NCBI GenBank assembly: GCA_946415475.1
Contig: CAMKSQ010000001.1
Span: forward strand, 1 to 64,000
DNA: 64,000 nt
DNA from: an uncultured Bacteroidales bacterium
Lineage (GTDB): Bacteria; Bacteroidota; Bacteroidia; Bacteroidales; UBA932
Direction: 5' to 3'
Shown: positions 3,862 to 39,567 of the stretch, piece by piece
Layout of the letters: every line of letters starts with the position of its first letter
Numbering within the stretch: the first letter of the stretch is position 1
Notes under the pieces: generated by a model
What the model saw: only the letters and a program-made list of their open reading frames with translations
The model's database searches: none
What the model was told of the DNA's origin: nothing
Program-made: the position numbers and the translations under genes

Positions 3862-4902
3862 ATGGCACTCCCTAAACTTGTTGTGGGAATCACCCAAGGA
3901 GACAGCAACGGCATCGGCTACGAGGTCATCATCAAATCCCTCGCGGACGAGCGCATCCTGGACTCCTTTACCCCTGTCATTTACGGCTCCTCCAAACTGC
4001 TGGGCTTTTACCGGAAAACGCTGCACAACATCGGCCCCATGGACGTGAACGTGATTTCGTCCGCATCGGATGCCCGTCCGCGCAAAATCAACCTGGTAAA
4101 CTGCCTGCCGGACAATATTTACGCAGAACCCGGCCAGAGCACCCCGGAAAGCGCCAAAAACGCCATCGCCGCGCTGGACGCCGCCGTTAAGGACCTCAAG
4201 GACGGACAGATAGACGTCCTGGTCACCGCGCCCATCAACAAGCGCGCCATGAATGCAGAAGGCTTCTCCAACACCGGCCACACGGAATTCCTTCAGAAGG
4301 AGTTTGGCGTGGACGATGTCACCATGATCATGGTCAGCGACCAAATCAAGATTGGCGTAGTCACCGGCCACATCCCGCTCCGGGACGTTCCGGGAAGCAT
4401 CTCCCAGGAAGCCATCCTGGGCAAACTGCGCATCATGAAAGCCTCCCTGGAGCGCGACTTTGGCGTGGCGGACCCCAAGATTGCCGTGCTGGGCCTGAAC
4501 CCGCACTGCGGGGACGGCGGCCTACTGGGCGACGAAGAGCAGAACATCATCCTGCCGGCCGTAAAAGCCGCCCAGGAGGAAGGCATCCAGGCCTTTGGCC
4601 CCTACTCCCCCGACGGATTCTTCGGGCTGGGCAATTACAGCCGCTTTGACGCTACGCTGGCCATGTACCACGACCAAGGCCTGGCTCCGTTCAAGGCCCT
4701 GGCCTTTGCCGATGGCGTCAACTACACCGCCGGTCTGCCCGTGGTACGCACGTCGCCGGACCACGGCACCGCCTATGAGATGGCCGGCCGGGACGAGGCA
4801 GACCCGCGTTCCATGATGAGCGCCATCTACACCGCCATCGACATTTTCCGGAAACGCCTCCAGTACGATTCCTTAATGGAAGGGAGATTGGTGGAGAAAT
4901 AA
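3862..4902 (+). CDS. pdxA: 4-hydroxythreonine-4-phosphate dehydrogenase
   Basis: GITQGDSNGIGYEVI, TAPINKRAM, GHTEFL, YHDQGLAPFK. Confidence 0.95.
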   Translation: MALPKLVVGITQGDSNGIGYEVIIKSLADERILDSFTPVIYGSSKLLGFYRKTLHNIGPMDVNVISSASDARPRKINLVNCLPDNIYAEPGQSTPESAKNAIAALDAAVKDLKDGQIDVLVTAPINKRAMNAEGFSNTGHTEFLQKEFGVDDVTMIMVSDQIKIGVVTGHIPLRDVPGSISQEAILGKLRIMKASLERDFGVADPKIAVLGLNPHCGDGGLLGDEEQNIILPAVKAAQEEGIQAFGPYSPDGFFGLGNYSRFDATLAMYHDQGLAPFKALAFADGVNYTAGLPVVRTSPDHGTAYEMAGRDEADPRSMMSAIYTAIDIFRKRLQYDSLMEGRLVEK

Positions 4903-4917
4903 TTATCGGGCCCCACC

Positions 4918-5111
4918 CTGCAAAAGGTTGGTTGCATCATTGCAAAAGGTTGGTTTTCAAGTGACCAGCCTTTTGCACGTAAATGGCCCTGGGAATATGC
5001 GAGAGGCCGTTCCGCTGTCAAAGGTTGGCGTCACAAAATCCAGCCATTGACAGAACTGCCGCCAACCTTTAACAGAACTGCCGCCAACCTTTGACGACGG
5101 ACAAATAATTA
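4918..5111 (+). repeat. Structured intergenic repeat, copy A (194 bp)
   Basis: Identical, in reverse orientation, to 8320-8491 except for an extra 22-bp tandem copy of CAGAACTGCCGCCAACCTTTAA; two stem families built on AAAGGTTGG. Confidence 0.95.
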
Positions 5112-7238
5112 GGAAATCTGGGAATAATCCTTGGTTTGGTATTTGTCCCGCTTGAGCTCTGCGGCGAGCGGGGCATTGCGGTCCTGGGTGAGGCCCGGAT
5201 CCTGGTCCAGGATGTGCTGGGCATAGCCGCGGGCATCGGACAGGATGAGCCCGTCCTTGGCCAGGGAGGCAATGTTGAGGCTAATGGGAAGGCCGCTTTG
5301 CTGGGTGCCTTCCAGGTCTCCGGGGCCGCGCATCTTCATGTCTTCCTCGGCCAGTTCAAAGCCGTTTTCCGTGGCGCAGAGCAGGTCCAGGCGCTTCTGG
5401 CTTTCCTTGGAGACCTTGGTGCCCCGCATGAGTATACAATAGGAGCGTTCCGCACCCCGTCCTACACGACCACGCAACTGGTGCAACTGGCTTAGGCCAA
5501 AGCGCTCCGCACTTTCGATGACCATCACGGAGGCATTGGGCACATCCACGCCCACCTCAATAACCGTGGTGGAAACCAGGATGTTGGCGCGCCCAGCCAC
5601 AAAAGCGTCCATGTTGAACGCTTTTTCCTGCGGCGTCTGCTGACCATGGACGATGGCCACCTTATACTGCGGCAGCGGGAAGGCTTTCACAATTTCCTCG
5701 TACCCCAGTTCCAGGTTCTTGTAGTCCAGTTTTTCGCTTTCGAAAATGAGCGGATATACGATGAAGGCCTGCCGTCCTTTGGCAATCTCGTCCCGGATAA
5801 AATTGTGCATGGCGTGGCGCTTTCCCTCGCCTACGCACAACGTTTGAACGGGCTTACGGCCCGGGGGCATTTCGTCAATCACGGAGACGTCCAGATCCCC
5901 GTACAGGGTCATGGCCAGGGTGCGCGGAATGGGCGTGGCGGTCATTACCAGCACGTGCGGCGGAACGCCCTGCCATCCTTTGTTCCAGAGCCGGGCGCGC
6001 TGGTCCACGCCAAAGCGGTGTTGCTCATCGACAATAGCCAGCCCCAAAGCCCGGAAATGCACCGTATCTTCTATGAGCGCATGTGTGCCAATAAGCACTC
6101 CGATGCTTCCGTCCTGCAGCCCCGCATGGATTTCCCGGCGGTCTTTGACGCCGGTGTTGCCGGTAAGGAGCGCAACCTTTACGCCCGTGGGCCTGAGGTA
6201 CTTGGATACGTTGGCAAAATGCTGCTGGGCAAGCACTTCCGTGGGCGCCATGACGCAGGCCTGGTAGCCGTTCCCCACAGCGATGAGGGCACTGAGCACC
6301 GCCACCATGGTTTTGCCGGAGCCTACATCGCCCTGCAGCAGGCGGTTCATCTGGTGGCCGCTGCGCATATCGTCACGGATTTCCCGGATTACGCGCTTTT
6401 GCGCATTGGTCAGTTCGTACGGAAGCGCGTTGTAGCAAGCGTTGAACGCCTCTCCTACGGCCGGCATATTGAGCCCGACGGCGCTGCGGCTGCGGACGTA
6501 TTTTTGCTTGAGCAGGGACAGCTGCAGGAGGAAAAGTTCCTCGAATTTGAGCCGATAGGTGGCCTTGGCCAGGGCATTCTGATCCACCGGGAAGTGGATT
6601 TGCCTTAACGCATAAGTGAGGGGAACCAGCCCTTTTTCCTTTAAGATATAGTCCGGCAGCGTGTCCTGCAGGGTAGGCAATACGCCTTCCAGGGCCGTGC
6701 CGATCAGTTTGAGCATCACCTTGCCCGTGATGCCGGCGGTCTTGAGTTTTTCCGTAGAGGTATATACCCCGGTGAGGACGCCGGTATTGGCACTGTCCGG
6801 TGCATCCACTTCCGGATGGACCATGTTGAGCCGCGTGCCAAAAACGGCCGGTTTCCCAAAGAAGATGAACGAGTGGCCGGGAATCAGGCGGGCGTGCATC
6901 CACTTGACGCCCTTGAAAAAAACCATCTCCATTTCGCCGCTCTCATCCGCCACGATGACGCTTAAGCGGCTCACCATGTTGTATTTCAGCTTCTCCGCGG
7001 GGAGTTCCACGCCGTTCTTGCCGTAGAGGCGGACCTTGGTGACCATGGCACGCACTTGCACCTGGGCCAGGTCCGGATGGATATCGGCAATACGGACAAT
7101 GCTGCTACGGTCGATGTAGCGGAAAGGATACGTACGCACCAGGTCCCCCACCGTGCTGATTCCCAGCTCGGTTTGCAGGAGTTCCGCCCGTTTGGGCCCC
7201 ACCCCCGGCAGGTACTGTATGGCCGTATCCAGGTTCAT
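5109..7238 (-). CDS. recG: ATP-dependent DNA helicase RecG
   Basis: YLPGVGPKRAELL, GDVGSGKTMVA, DEQHRFGV, LHQLRGRVGRG. Confidence 0.96.
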   Translation of the reverse strand: MNLDTAIQYLPGVGPKRAELLQTELGISTVGDLVRTYPFRYIDRSSIVRIADIHPDLAQVQVRAMVTKVRLYGKNGVELPAEKLKYNMVSRLSVIVADESGEMEMVFFKGVKWMHARLIPGHSFIFFGKPAVFGTRLNMVHPEVDAPDSANTGVLTGVYTSTEKLKTAGITGKVMLKLIGTALEGVLPTLQDTLPDYILKEKGLVPLTYALRQIHFPVDQNALAKATYRLKFEELFLLQLSLLKQKYVRSRSAVGLNMPAVGEAFNACYNALPYELTNAQKRVIREIRDDMRSGHQMNRLLQGDVGSGKTMVAVLSALIAVGNGYQACVMAPTEVLAQQHFANVSKYLRPTGVKVALLTGNTGVKDRREIHAGLQDGSIGVLIGTHALIEDTVHFRALGLAIVDEQHRFGVDQRARLWNKGWQGVPPHVLVMTATPIPRTLAMTLYGDLDVSVIDEMPPGRKPVQTLCVGEGKRHAMHNFIRDEIAKGRQAFIVYPLIFESEKLDYKNLELGYEEIVKAFPLPQYKVAIVHGQQTPQEKAFNMDAFVAGRANILVSTTVIEVGVDVPNASVMVIESAERFGLSQLHQLRGRVGRGAERSYCILMRGTKVSKESQKRLDLLCATENGFELAEEDMKMRGPGDLEGTQQSGLPISLNIASLAKDGLILSDARGYAQHILDQDPGLTQDRNAPLAAELKRDKYQTKDYSQIS

Positions 7239-7243
7239 CCTTA

Positions 7244-7270
7244 CAAAGATACAATTTTTTTCTATCTTTG
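7244..7270. promoter_or_regulatory. Mirrored divergent -7 boxes for recG (-; 7244-7251) and lactonase (+; 7263-7270)
   Basis: CAAAGATA-11 bp-TATCTTTG, perfectly symmetric boxes. Confidence 0.65.
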
Positions 7271-7275
7271 TGGAT

Positions 7276-8322
7276 ATGAAACGAATCCTTGCCATCCTCA
7301 CCATGCTGGCCGCCCTGAGCGCCTGCCAACAGTCTGCCACCTTGTTTGTCGGAACCTATTCGGACGGGTTCTTTGCCTACGGTTTCGATTTGGATAAGGG
7401 CGATGTCCTTCCGGGGGAACCCGCCAAGGCACCCATGCCCAATCCGTCCTTCCTGGCCATTGACGGGAACAAGGTGTACGCAGTGAGCGAGATGCCGGAC
7501 AGCACGGCTTCCGTGTGGGCCTGGCGCTATGGCGGGGGCGGGTTCGAACTCCTGGGCAGCCAGCCCACCGGCCTTCCGAATGGGGGTGAGGACCCCTGCT
7601 ACGTGTCCACCGACGGCCGTTTCCTGGCAGTGGCCAACTACAGCGGCGGCTCCCTGGCTGTATATCAATTAAAGGACGATGGCGGCATCGCTCCGCTGGA
7701 CAGTCTGGTGTTCAGCAGCACGGGCGGTCTCGACCTTTCCCGGCAGGACAAACCGCATGTGCATTGCGCTCTCTTTACGCCCGATAAGCAACTGCTGTTC
7801 ACTGAGTTCAGTGCCGATGCCATCAGCTCGATGGACATTACGCCGCTGGGTGCAACCAACTTCCGGAAACGGGCCCAGTTGCCTGCGGATTTCGGCCCGC
7901 GTCATCTGCTGCTGAACGGGAACCGCCTCTACTGCATTGGCGAGCTTTCCGGCGACATCGCCGTGCTCAGTTACCCGGAAATGACCCTCCTGCAAGTGGT
8001 GAAGGCCGATGAGGTAGACGCCCGCGGCGCCGCAGACCTGCACCTGAGCCCGGACGGCAAGTATTTATACGCCAGCCTGCGTCTGCAAAACGACGGCGTG
8101 GCCATTTTCAAAGTCACAGAAGATGGCCTTCTGGAGAAAATCGCCTACCAGCAGACGGGCAGCCATCCCCGGAACTTCACGGTCCTGGAACAGTGGGTTC
8201 TGGTGGCTTGCCGGGATACGGACCAGGTGGAAATCTACCGCCGGGACAAAAAAAGCGGCAGCCTGCAGGATACAGGCCGCCGGATTCACGTTTCCAAGCC
8301 GGTATTCGTCGGGATTCAGTAA
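7276..8322 (+). CDS. Lactonase family beta-propeller lipoprotein (6-phosphogluconolactonase, YbhE type)
   Basis: Lipobox LSAC; FVGTYSDGFFAYGFDLD, GPRHLLL, LHLSPDGKYLYASLR, GSHPRNF. Confidence 0.85.
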   Translation: MKRILAILTMLAALSACQQSATLFVGTYSDGFFAYGFDLDKGDVLPGEPAKAPMPNPSFLAIDGNKVYAVSEMPDSTASVWAWRYGGGGFELLGSQPTGLPNGGEDPCYVSTDGRFLAVANYSGGSLAVYQLKDDGGIAPLDSLVFSSTGGLDLSRQDKPHVHCALFTPDKQLLFTEFSADAISSMDITPLGATNFRKRAQLPADFGPRHLLLNGNRLYCIGELSGDIAVLSYPEMTLLQVVKADEVDARGAADLHLSPDGKYLYASLRLQNDGVAIFKVTEDGLLEKIAYQQTGSHPRNFTVLEQWVLVACRDTDQVEIYRRDKKSGSLQDTGRRIHVSKPVFVGIQ

Positions 8323-8491
8323 TTATTTGTCCGTCGTCAAAGGTTGGCGGCAGTTCTGTCAATGGCTGGATTTTGTGACGCCAACCTTTGACAGCGGAAC
8401 GGCCTCTCGCATATTCCCAGGGCCATTTACGTGCAAAAGGCTGGTCACTTGAAAACCAACCTTTTGCAATGATGCAACCAACCTTTTGCAG
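8320..8491 (-). repeat. Structured intergenic repeat, copy B (172 bp), inverted relative to copy A
   Basis: Reverse complement identical to 4918-5111 minus one 22-bp tandem unit. Confidence 0.95.
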
Positions 8492-8498
8492 AAGGGTC

Positions 8499-10715
8499 TT
8501 ACTCCGCCTTCATCCAGCGATCCAGCCAGCCAAAGTAGCTGCGGTGCCAATAGAGGGCGTTCTGGGGCTTCAGGATCCAGTGGTTCTCGTTAGGGAACAC
8601 GATGAGTTTGGACGGTACACCCATCATTTGAGCCGCATTGAAGGCAGCCATACCCTCATCCACCGGCACGCGGAAGTCCGAGCCGCCATGGATGCAGAGG
8701 ATGGGCGTGTGCCAGTTCCGCACCAGCTTGTGCGGGGAATTGGCATAGTGACGCACGGCAGCGGGCTTGTTGCTCCAGGGAGAGCCGGCCTGCTGCAGGC
8801 CGCCAAAGGTGATACCGTCACCGGCAGGACCCGTCTGGCCCTCCGTATAGGCATATTCCATGGGGATGCCGCCATTGTCCCAGTTGGGGAACCACATCTC
8901 TTCCGTGGTCATGTACATGTGCTCCTCGTTGAAAATACCCGCATGGGAAATGAAGCAGTCGTACATGTCGCCGTGAATACCGGCCAGATAATAAATGCTG
9001 TACCCGCCGTAAGAAGCGCCACAGGCAGCGACGCCACTCACATACGGTTCCGCCTTAATGTTGCGGGCAGCCGTAAGGTAATCCTGCATATTAAGGCCGA
9101 TATAGTCGCCGGAGATTTCCTCGCACCAGGGCTGGCCGAAGGCCGTGGTTCCGCGCCGGTTAGGCAGCACCACCACATAGCCCTGATGACACATGAGCAG
9201 ATAATTCCAGCGATAGCTCCAGCCCTGCGAAAGCGTTCCCTGCGGACCGCCCAGGCAAATTTCGATGGCCGGATAGGTCTTGGAGGCGTCGAACTGGGGC
9301 GGATAGAGCACCCAGGTGAGCATCTTCTCCCCGTCCACGGTATCCAGCCAGCGGGCCTCGGTCTCGTGCGAATCCAGCTGCGAAAGCAGGTGCTCGTTCT
9401 CAAAGCTGAGCTGCTTGATGGAATTATCGGTCACGGCCACCAGCTCCGTCGGGAAATCCATGGAAGCGTAGGTGGTGAGCAGCGTCCCATCCTGCGTCAC
9501 GCCAAAGGGCGAGCCAAAATCGAACCAAAGGTTATCGGCCGTAAGGCGCACGATTTCAGGCGTTTGGGAAAGCACCACGTTGAAAATACCCTGGAGGCCT
9601 TCCGCCAGCGCGGCAAAGTAGATGGACTGGCTGTCCGCCGCCCACACGGGCCCATCGGCATTGTATTTAAAGGCCGATGTCACGTCGCAAATGTCCTCCA
9701 CCACGGGATTGTCGGTCTGTCCCTCCCCTTCTTCCTCATAGCGGACCGATGCCACCATCAGGCGCACCTTGTCCGCCTCATAGCCGTCGCGCTCCATGGA
9801 AAGCCAGGCCAGCTTGCTGCCGTCCGGACTCCAGACGGGGTGCGTATCATAGCCGCCCTTGGAGGTTACCTGGGTGGTCTGGCCCGTAAGCGGGCAATAA
9901 ATATAGATACAGGTATTGGTCGAGAAAGCATATTGCTTCCCTGCCAGCTTTTTGCAGGAATAGGCGATGTACCGGCCGTCCGGGCTCCAGCAAAGGTCCG
10001 CCACATCCGGGAAGGGGCCGTTGGGCAGCTGGAAGAAGGCCTCGTCCTCTCCCAGGATGTCCATGCCTTCGCGAATGACTCCATTGCCGAGTGTAGCCAC
10101 AAAGCTGTGCGGAATGTCCGTCACCCAGTGGTCCCAGTGCCGATACATCAGGTCTTCCGTGGCATAGGCCTCCGCCTTGGAAAGCAGCGGATCGGTGTCT
10201 GCCGGGACCTCCACTGCGCTGTGAACATTGGACACGTAAATCAGTTGGGACTCGTCCGGCGAGAGGAGATAATCGTCCATGCCGGCAGGGATGTCCGAAA
10301 GCTGCGTACGCTTGCCCAGTTTGCCGTTTTTGAACGGGGCCTTGTACAACTGGCCGCCCTGCAGGAAGTATATGGCGCTGCCGTCCTGGCTCCATCGGGC
10401 CGAAGCAATGCTTTTGCCGTCCATGGTCAGTTGCGTGGGCTCACCGCCCTCCACAGGCATCACAAAGAGGTTGCGCACGCTGCGGTTCTCCGCAATGGAA
10501 GTATAGCTGACGCCATACAGGATGGTCTTTCCGTCCGGCGACAGTTGAGGGTCGCTCAGGCGCCCCAGCGAGAGCAGCAGCTCCGGGGTCATGTGCCCGC
10601 CTTCCACTTGCAGGGAGGAGGGGCCGATATACGCTTTGTCCGGTTTCATTTCCGTGTTGTTACAGGCAGCGAGGGCCAGTGCCGCAACCGCCGATGCTAA
10701 ATACTTAGTTTTCAT
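8499..10715 (-). CDS. S9 family serine peptidase (prolyl oligopeptidase/DPP-like), lipoprotein
   Basis: Lipobox LAAC; CGASYGGYS nucleophile elbow, GGSDFRVPVDEG, ENHWI; beta-propeller SPDG repeats. Confidence 0.88.
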   Translation of the reverse strand: MKTKYLASAVAALALAACNNTEMKPDKAYIGPSSLQVEGGHMTPELLLSLGRLSDPQLSPDGKTILYGVSYTSIAENRSVRNLFVMPVEGGEPTQLTMDGKSIASARWSQDGSAIYFLQGGQLYKAPFKNGKLGKRTQLSDIPAGMDDYLLSPDESQLIYVSNVHSAVEVPADTDPLLSKAEAYATEDLMYRHWDHWVTDIPHSFVATLGNGVIREGMDILGEDEAFFQLPNGPFPDVADLCWSPDGRYIAYSCKKLAGKQYAFSTNTCIYIYCPLTGQTTQVTSKGGYDTHPVWSPDGSKLAWLSMERDGYEADKVRLMVASVRYEEEGEGQTDNPVVEDICDVTSAFKYNADGPVWAADSQSIYFAALAEGLQGIFNVVLSQTPEIVRLTADNLWFDFGSPFGVTQDGTLLTTYASMDFPTELVAVTDNSIKQLSFENEHLLSQLDSHETEARWLDTVDGEKMLTWVLYPPQFDASKTYPAIEICLGGPQGTLSQGWSYRWNYLLMCHQGYVVVLPNRRGTTAFGQPWCEEISGDYIGLNMQDYLTAARNIKAEPYVSGVAACGASYGGYSIYYLAGIHGDMYDCFISHAGIFNEEHMYMTTEEMWFPNWDNGGIPMEYAYTEGQTGPAGDGITFGGLQQAGSPWSNKPAAVRHYANSPHKLVRNWHTPILCIHGGSDFRVPVDEGMAAFNAAQMMGVPSKLIVFPNENHWILKPQNALYWHRSYFGWLDRWMKAE

Positions 10716-37918: not shown

Positions 37919-38746
37919 ATGGATCCAAGAATAGAAACCATCAATGCGATTACTGCCCGCCTGAAAGAGCGCATCGAAGGCCGTCAGCCGGAACTGGGCA
38001 TTGTCCTTGGCAGCGGCTTGGGAAGCCTGGCAGAATCCATCGAAAATCCTATCGTCGTCCCCTACCGGGAACTCCCCGGCTTCCCCGTTTCCACCGCAAC
38101 GGGCCATAAGGGAAACTTCATCGTGGGCACCCTGGGCGGCAAAATGGTCATCGCCATGCAGGGCCGTATCCACTTTTATGAGGGCTATAGCATGGACAAA
38201 GTGGTGCTGCCCATCCGCGTCATGATCGGCTGCGGCATCAAGCGCCTCTTCGTTTCCAACGCCGCCGGCGGCACCAACCTCGCCTTCCATGTGGGAGACC
38301 TCATGATTATCCGCGACCACATCAACCTGTTGCCCAACCCGCTTATCGGCCCTAATTTTGACGATTTCGGCCCGCGCTTCCCGGACATGACCCGCCCGTA
38401 CGACCCTGCCCTCATCCACCTGGCCATCGTCACGGCCGCAGAGGAAGGCATCCAGTTGCAAAAAGGCGTGTATGTGGGCGGCACCGGCCCGTCCTATGAG
38501 ACGCCCGCGGAATACAAGTACTTCCGCACCATCGGCGGCGATGCCGTAGGCATGAGTACCGTTCCGGAAGTCATCGTGGCCCGCCACGCCGGCATCCCGG
38601 TGTTCGGCATGTCCGTCATCACCAATGAAGCTCATGACGATTATGCCGATGATTACGAAAACGACGGAGAAGACGTGGTAATTGCCGCTAACGCCGCCGC
38701 TGACAAAATGACCCGTTTAATCACGAAAATGATTGAGAAACTATGA
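37919..38746 (+). CDS. Purine-nucleoside phosphorylase (paralog 1)
   Basis: [53 protein letters not shown]. Confidence 0.92.
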
Positions 38747-39567
38747 ATTACGCAGACACCATACACCTCGCATCAGACTATATAAAGAACCGTCTGGACG
38801 GACGCCAGCCGCTGTTTGGCATCGTCCTGGGAAGCGGACTGGGCAAACTGGCAGACCAGATTGAAGACCCGCTGGTCATCCCCTACCGGGATGTGCCCGG
38901 TTTCCCGGTGAGCACGGCAATCGGCCATAAAGGCAATTTCATCGTGGGAACGCTGTCCGGCAAAACCGTGATTGCCATGCAGGGCCGTATCCATTATTAT
39001 GAGGGCTACGGCATGAACCAGGTGGTTCTGCCCATCCGCGTCATGGAAGTACTGGGCATCAAATACCTGTTCGTCTCCAATGCCGCCGGTGGCACCAACC
39101 TGGCCTTCCATGTAGGTGACCTCATGATTATCAAGGACCATATCAACCTGCTGCCCAACCCGCTTATCGGCCCTAATCTGGAAGAATTCGGTCCCCGTTT
39201 CCCGGACATGACCCGTCCGTACGACCCTGCCCTTATCCGCAAGGCGGAAAAGATTGCCGCCAAGGAAGGCATCCGGCTCCAGAAAGGCGTATATGTAGCC
39301 TGCACCGGCCCGTCCTATGAGACGCCCGCGGAATACCGCTACTTTGCCACCATCGGCGCCGATGCCGTGGGCATGAGCACCACCCCGGAGGTTATCGTGG
39401 CACGTCACGCCAACATCCCGGTCTTCGGCATGTCCGTGATTACAGACGTTGCCCGCGCCACCGACGATGACGACTACGTCACCGACGGCGAAGCCATCGT
39501 CAAAGCCGCCGACGCCGCCGCCGACAAAATGACCATCATCTTCAAGAAACTCATCGCGCAACTGTAA
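38743..39567 (+). CDS. Purine-nucleoside phosphorylase (paralog 2)
   Basis: Same motifs; tandem duplicate overlapping paralog 1 by 4 bp. Confidence 0.92.

Follow-up and report, generated by a model that had tools for sequence, protein, structure and literature searches.

The window, a stretch of 64 kb, belongs to a 2.25 Mb MAG of 65 contigs (labelled C1, C23, C28 and so on below). In it, recG and a divergently transcribed lactonase gene are enclosed by two inverted repeats, A and B, each of which fills a convergent spacer: pdxA and recG point towards each other across A, and the lactonase gene and an S9/Dpp5-like peptidase gene do so across B (Table 1). Both the convergent setting and the near-identity of the repeats had been recognised in a preliminary description of this DNA, and both were confirmed. 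A local alignment of A with the reverse complement of B is free of substitutions and the lone difference is a unit of 22 bp; the pair is the top-scoring inverted repeat of the window. According to profile matches, there is no invertase among the four genes around A and B.

Table 1 Features of the recG-lactonase region (coordinates of the window)
Feature	Position	Strand	Remarks
pdxA	3862-4902	+	Left neighbour, 3' end toward A; TIGR00557, 366 bits
Copy A	4918-5111	+	Element proper about 4920-5092; 5093-5111 is the 19-bp recG 3' flank with the recG stop
A hairpin 1	4941-4977	+	37-nt palindrome, TGCAAAAGGTTGG / CCAGCCTTTTGCA
A hairpin 2	5016-5052	+	TGTCAAAGGTTGG / CCAGCCATTGACA; starts 75 bp past the start of hairpin 1
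22-bp half-site unit	5062-5083	+	Ancestral; absent from B
recG	5109-7238	-	NF008168, 832 bits
Lactonase gene, 7-bladed propeller	7276-8322	+	Divergent from recG; PF10282, 235 bits
Copy B	8320-8491	-	Starts at the lactonase stop; recG-type 3' flank at 8320-8338
B hairpin 2	8357-8393	-	From palindrome search
B hairpin 1	8432-8468	-	75 bp from B hairpin 2
S9 / dipeptidyl-peptidase Dpp5-like gene	8499-10715	-	3' end toward B

The element is built from two 37-nt palindromes, each with a 13-bp stem and an 11-nt loop, the second starting exactly 75 bp after the first; further half-sites follow outside the hairpin pair at 22-bp steps. The entire window has only three pairs of such palindromes (13+11+13 nt, 38-130 bp apart), A and B being two of the three. 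Folding of both strands gave z values of -4.2 and -4.0 against dinucleotide shuffles, and none of 200 shuffles equalled them. The ends of the element were set by an empty-like junction in UBA2716. By this measure, 19 bp of the block shared by A and B (GACGACGGACAAATAATTA) are gene-flank DNA outside the element, and the block takes in both stop codons, that of recG at 5109-5111 and that of the lactonase gene at 8320-8322. Elsewhere in the window, positions 37976-39443 hold a duplicated tandem stretch with a period of 821 bp and 77-86% identity, and two tandem units of 51 bp, 80% identical, lie at the window start (240-341).

A dispersed family of double hairpins

The preliminary description had proposed a copy count of the 172-bp unit and had considered a mobile or maintained family. 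Further copies are indeed present, and the element was found at about 20 loci of the window's genome. The unit has 30 matches there, which besides A and B are mostly 70-88% identical and many of which lie at contig ends. Since the genome contains at least 18 more matches, and since the family adjoins a RAYT gene in relatives, a mobile or maintained family is borne out; a plain local duplication is ruled out by the many copies elsewhere in the genome. The hairpin pattern occurs 27 times in the genome, compared to 0 occurrences in a backwards control. Across 27 aligned copies from several genomes the hairpin-spacer-hairpin core does not have a single indel, and the sequence of the spacer is variable. 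Near-identical clusters are also formed by C24/C16, C30/C33 and C25/C28, so that A and B are not the sole near-identical set. No credible match to the element was found in Rfam. Covariation within the family did not reach significance relative to shuffles, since its stems hardly vary; stem changes are visible only between RAYT lineages.

Thirteen of 400 sampled species of the same genus carry the hairpin pattern, and none of the 199 relatives of the first family-wide draw does. The named carriers are mostly ruminant-gut Bacteroidales MAGs (UBA2716, UBA3764, RUG13332, RUG331, RGIG3780, UBA4360 and others); single matches in unrelated organisms, among them Chitinophagaceae, Arcobacter, Alkalibacillus and Thermonema, look fortuitous. 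The main caveat of these comparisons is that all genomes are MAGs, taken as short-read assemblies, in which repeats break contigs.

The copies lie between called genes. A bias to convergent junctions, which had been suspected, is present: of the 13 loci at which both neighbours are known, 7 are convergent, as against 10 of 50 gene pairs of the window (binomial p 0.007); among 34 adjoining gene ends, 24 are 3' ends (p 0.02). The excess shrinks when only gaps of 60 bp or more are taken as the reference (6 of 19 convergent), and the counts are small and come from a crude gene caller based on codon usage.

An IS with the ends GAGGCCGCTGAAAAA sits in the 11-nt loop of the element at the ends of C28, C36 and C5 (L010 1-55, L020 1-54 and L026 1546-1600, respectively). 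The C28 and C36 ends apparently border a single insertion from either side, with a target duplication of 10 bp (CGTCCTAAAA); the body of the IS is absent from the bin. A third palindromic repeat family (GTCATGCCCGGCCCCGACC..GGGCATC) forms an inverted pair around a variable segment and also adjoins recG in another species (L213 3585-3660 and 5900-6000; L170 1430-1500).

Concerted evolution and inverted segments

Recent duplication and ongoing gene conversion had both been offered as reasons for the identity of A and B. RUG13332, an independent assembly, has a pair A'/B' at the same two junctions, and its flanking DNA is just 84-88% identical to the window, which is at odds with a recent duplication. 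When A and B were compared with A' and B' over 156 aligned positions, six sites separated the species and none separated the copies. A and B thus evolve in concert, as expected from ongoing gene conversion; judged by this comparison, the duplication is old and its identity is maintained by concerted evolution. The 22-bp unit had been taken for a tandem duplication in A. Its presence in A, A' and B' does not agree with this and indicates that the unit is ancestral and was lost by deletion from B, with no gain by A.

It had also been argued that the segment between A and B could invert, and that an invariant orientation across strains, together with a lack of further copies, would reduce the pair to a local duplication. 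The orientation is not invariant across relatives, and inverted orientations at three loci support inversion over evolutionary time. At the recG locus, RUG331 and UBA2716 have the order pdxA> <lactonase recG> <S9, the inverse of that in the window and RUG13332. The element is absent from both junctions in these two species; no compared species combines the A/B pair with the opposite recG orientation, and the inverted species are without both elements. In UBA2716 the S9/recG junction reads GACCCTTCT-GACGACGGACAAATAATTA: here the flank that B has on the S9 side continues into the flank that A has on the recG side, and there is no target duplication at this empty-like junction. By the identities of pdxA, recG, the lactonase gene and the S9 gene, UBA2716 and RUG331 fall into one group with the window; the common ancestor therefore probably had the paired arrangement already, and inversion and loss of the elements would have come later, a direction that we infer from these groupings.

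The second case is on C28, where a GFO/IDH/MocA segment within an inverted pair of 97% identity is inverted relative to RUG13332 and UBA3764; at the equivalent locus, RUG13332 has inverted copies of a different palindromic repeat. The third is the RAYT cassette, which is inverted in UBA2716 relative to RUG13332 and UBA3764. Each of the three species has an element at either end of the cassette, and the flanks are collinear. As far as sequence comparison goes, this inversion is the cleanest of the three signs of recombination between inverted copies. The inverted cassette is 98% identical inside (RUG13332, L097 3630-5977, vs UBA2716, L201 2325-4661) compared to 84% in one flank, which suggests a transfer of the cassette between species; such an exchange may have occurred here as well. 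uvrA and an AMP-ligase gene are convergent across one element in UBA2716 and separated in the window's genome (C25 and C28), where each lies near a 99%-identical copy of the element (L211 = C25 and L210 = C28, vs L076); this separation is a possible element-mediated rearrangement.

The element is linked to a RAYT gene in relatives

UBA2716, RUG13332, UBA3764 and RGIG3780 each have a gene for a Y1_Tnp-like protein of 304-309 aa with the element next to it, either on one side or on both; in RUG13332 this gene is at L097 3874-4803. The Y1_Tnp match is weak (18.9 bits for the RUG13332 protein, below the Pfam cut-off of 23 bits), and the C terminus gave weak HTH-type matches in a few members. The motifs of the RAYT are HxH with a small x (NHxH) and YIPRNA; among the aligned relatives H68-x-H70 is nearly invariant and Y128 is invariant. 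In place of the class 2 signature Y---NP, the RAYT has AYIPRNA, in which N is kept and A replaces P. The best PDB match of the AlphaFold model (mean pLDDT 88.2) is 4er8, the complex of E. coli TnpA-REP with a REP hairpin; IS200/IS605 transposases come next. Paralogous RAYTs are accompanied by palindromes with other stems (TGATAAAGG, TGCAAAAGGTCGG, TGCGGAAGG, TGGGCAAGG, TGGCGAAGG) that keep the 75-bp spacing: 13 pairs were found at this spacing and at most two at any other. Different stems at a constant spacing are the pattern expected from coevolution of RAYT and REP.

In the window's genome, the proteins closest to the cognate RAYT share 48% and 39% identity with it, and neither has this element on its flanks. 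On C23, the two sequences that border the cassette in UBA2716 and RUG13332 are next to each other in the alignment, with only a row of half-sites in between. Judging from this alignment, the genome has lost the cognate RAYT and a half-site scar remains on C23. Present mobility of the element in this genome is unlikely, because no RAYT close to this REP variant remains.

Several other genes were considered as the cognate RAYT and rejected. The Y1_Tnp genes on C57, C1, C18 and C34, which were the first to be found in this genome, and a closer RAYT paralogue on C15 are not flanked by the element; the paralogue on C53 has another 75-bp repeat on its flanks, and its HUH histidines are gone. The repeat family that borders this gene (L101 1495-2412 and downstream) is TTAAAGCAC..GTGCTTTAA in 75-bp tandem, and the HUH region reads ATRGLC.

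Discussion

We consider it probable that A and B are copies of an atypical REPIN, a non-autonomous double hairpin spread by a Y1 (HUH) RAYT, and we predict that the element is mobilised in this way. It is the coevolution-like change of stems at a constant 75 bp beside the paralogous RAYTs that leads to this reading. The RAYT would recognise the paired hairpins as single-stranded DNA by a 75-bp ruler and would have copied the element into the convergent spacers. A and B are inverted, near-identical and 3.2 kb apart and could therefore recombine: RecA-type homologous recombination would keep the copies identical by conversion, and it could also invert the recG-lactonase segment. A later loss of copies would leave an empty-looking junction without target duplication. 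Against a REPIN stand the missing GT[AG]G foot, the small x in HxH and the motif Y-x-x-x-N-A instead of Y---NP; moreover, plain recombination inside the element does not explain why the 3' flank of recG is found on the lactonase gene.

The main rival for this flank is a duplication of the breakpoint region during the inversion. Pair and inversion would then be one event: a single element gave rise to an inverted second copy as the segment next to it turned over, through RAYT-coupled replicative inversion or through staggered breaks or template switching. Indeed, B bears 19 bp of recG's own 3' flank, as such a duplication would bring along, and at recG as well as at C28 the pair-bearing species have one orientation and the element-free species the other. 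However, gene trees trace the pair back to the ancestor shared by five species, the RAYT cassette exists in both orientations with elements at both ends so that no duplication is needed, and Y1 transposases are not known to have an activity of this kind. We hold a single event to be rather unlikely.

The strong hairpins and the convergent context (7 of 13 loci, 24 of 34 flanking 3' ends) could also mean that the elements owe their maintenance chiefly to a role as bidirectional terminators or as mRNA 3' stabilisers where genes converge, but T-runs are inside the loops and no T-tract follows the stems, only two convergent spacers of the window carry the element, and termination requires neither a 75-bp ruler nor a linked transposase. 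As the main reason for their maintenance this is quite improbable; such a role may be a side effect. Repeats that were collapsed or flipped by the assembler have to be considered as well, given that these are MAGs in which many contigs end in the repeats, but A and B differ by 22 bp, there is a one-base difference between A' and B', an independent assembly contains the same pair, and the gene order lies within a 283-kb contig in RUG331 and within a 318-kb contig in the case of the window, which makes an artefact very improbable. Hardly credible is a MITE of a DDE transposon, or a local duplication: the overall inverted symmetry and the intergenic dispersal would fit, but the two internal hairpins, the empty-like junction of UBA2716 without target duplication, the linked Y1 transposase and the copies elsewhere largely refute it.

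REPINs or BIMEs of Pseudomonas and E. coli consist of two inverted REP hairpins that form one unit of fixed length, with 71 bp between the REPs for GI in SBW25; they are extragenic, tied to one RAYT gene and mostly vertical, and precise loss of doublets has been seen (PMC3116915, PMC8049555). The element described here likewise has two inverted palindromes at a conserved spacing and is dispersed, extragenic and multicopy, and its cognate RAYT is bounded by the same REPs in UBA2716, RUG13332, UBA3764 and RGIG3780, the cassette being deleted in the window's genome. It differs from REPINs in that its hairpin starts are 75 bp apart across several RAYT lineages, in the extra half-sites of its halves at 22-bp steps, in a copy number of about 20 instead of hundreds, and from canonical REPINs in the lack of a GT[AG]G foot, with no GTAG or GTGG beside the stems in the 27-copy alignment; atypical classes are allowed for in the literature (PMC6006769), and we do not count the element as a canonical GTAG REP. 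The transposase resembles TnpA-REP/RAYT proteins in its Y1/HUH core, the fold match to 4er8, one RAYT per REP family and several RAYTs per genome (PMC6006769). It differs in its length of about 305 aa and a putative C-terminal HTH (weak matches in a few members), features described for RAYT subclass 2.1, and in the motifs NHxH and YIPRNA; subclass 2.1 had no REPs (PMC6006769), and REPs are present here. TIRtrons/TIRYT also have a Y1 gene bounded by inverted repeats, with dispersed and in part self-complementary copies, but the repeats here are double hairpins of fixed geometry, and GGGGWSAS, reported for many TIRs, is not in the element consensus (PMC3733652). The IS in the hairpin loop at contig ends is reminiscent of the REP-targeting IS elements ISPpu9 and ISPsy8 (PMC1525189).

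Taken together, we read the element as an atypical REPIN/RAYT system of rumen Bacteroidales. It is tempting to go further and to see a new lineage of HTH-tailed RAYTs with 75-bp-ruler REPINs and a variable stem "address" (TGnnnAAGG), in which the activity of the RAYT, and not only RecA, makes inverted pairs and inversions and thereby shuffles the genome at convergent junctions; this is a speculative proposal that we regard as unlikely. The REPIN literature that we found rests mainly on Proteobacteria. The species comparison adds REPIN pairs that remain identical through concerted evolution and enclose segments that flip; the window's genome would represent a population of REPINs whose RAYT is gone. 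Within a single uncultured rumen genus, several lineages of RAYT share an architecture but differ in their stems, and they would be natural material for the study of the RAYT-REP recognition code.
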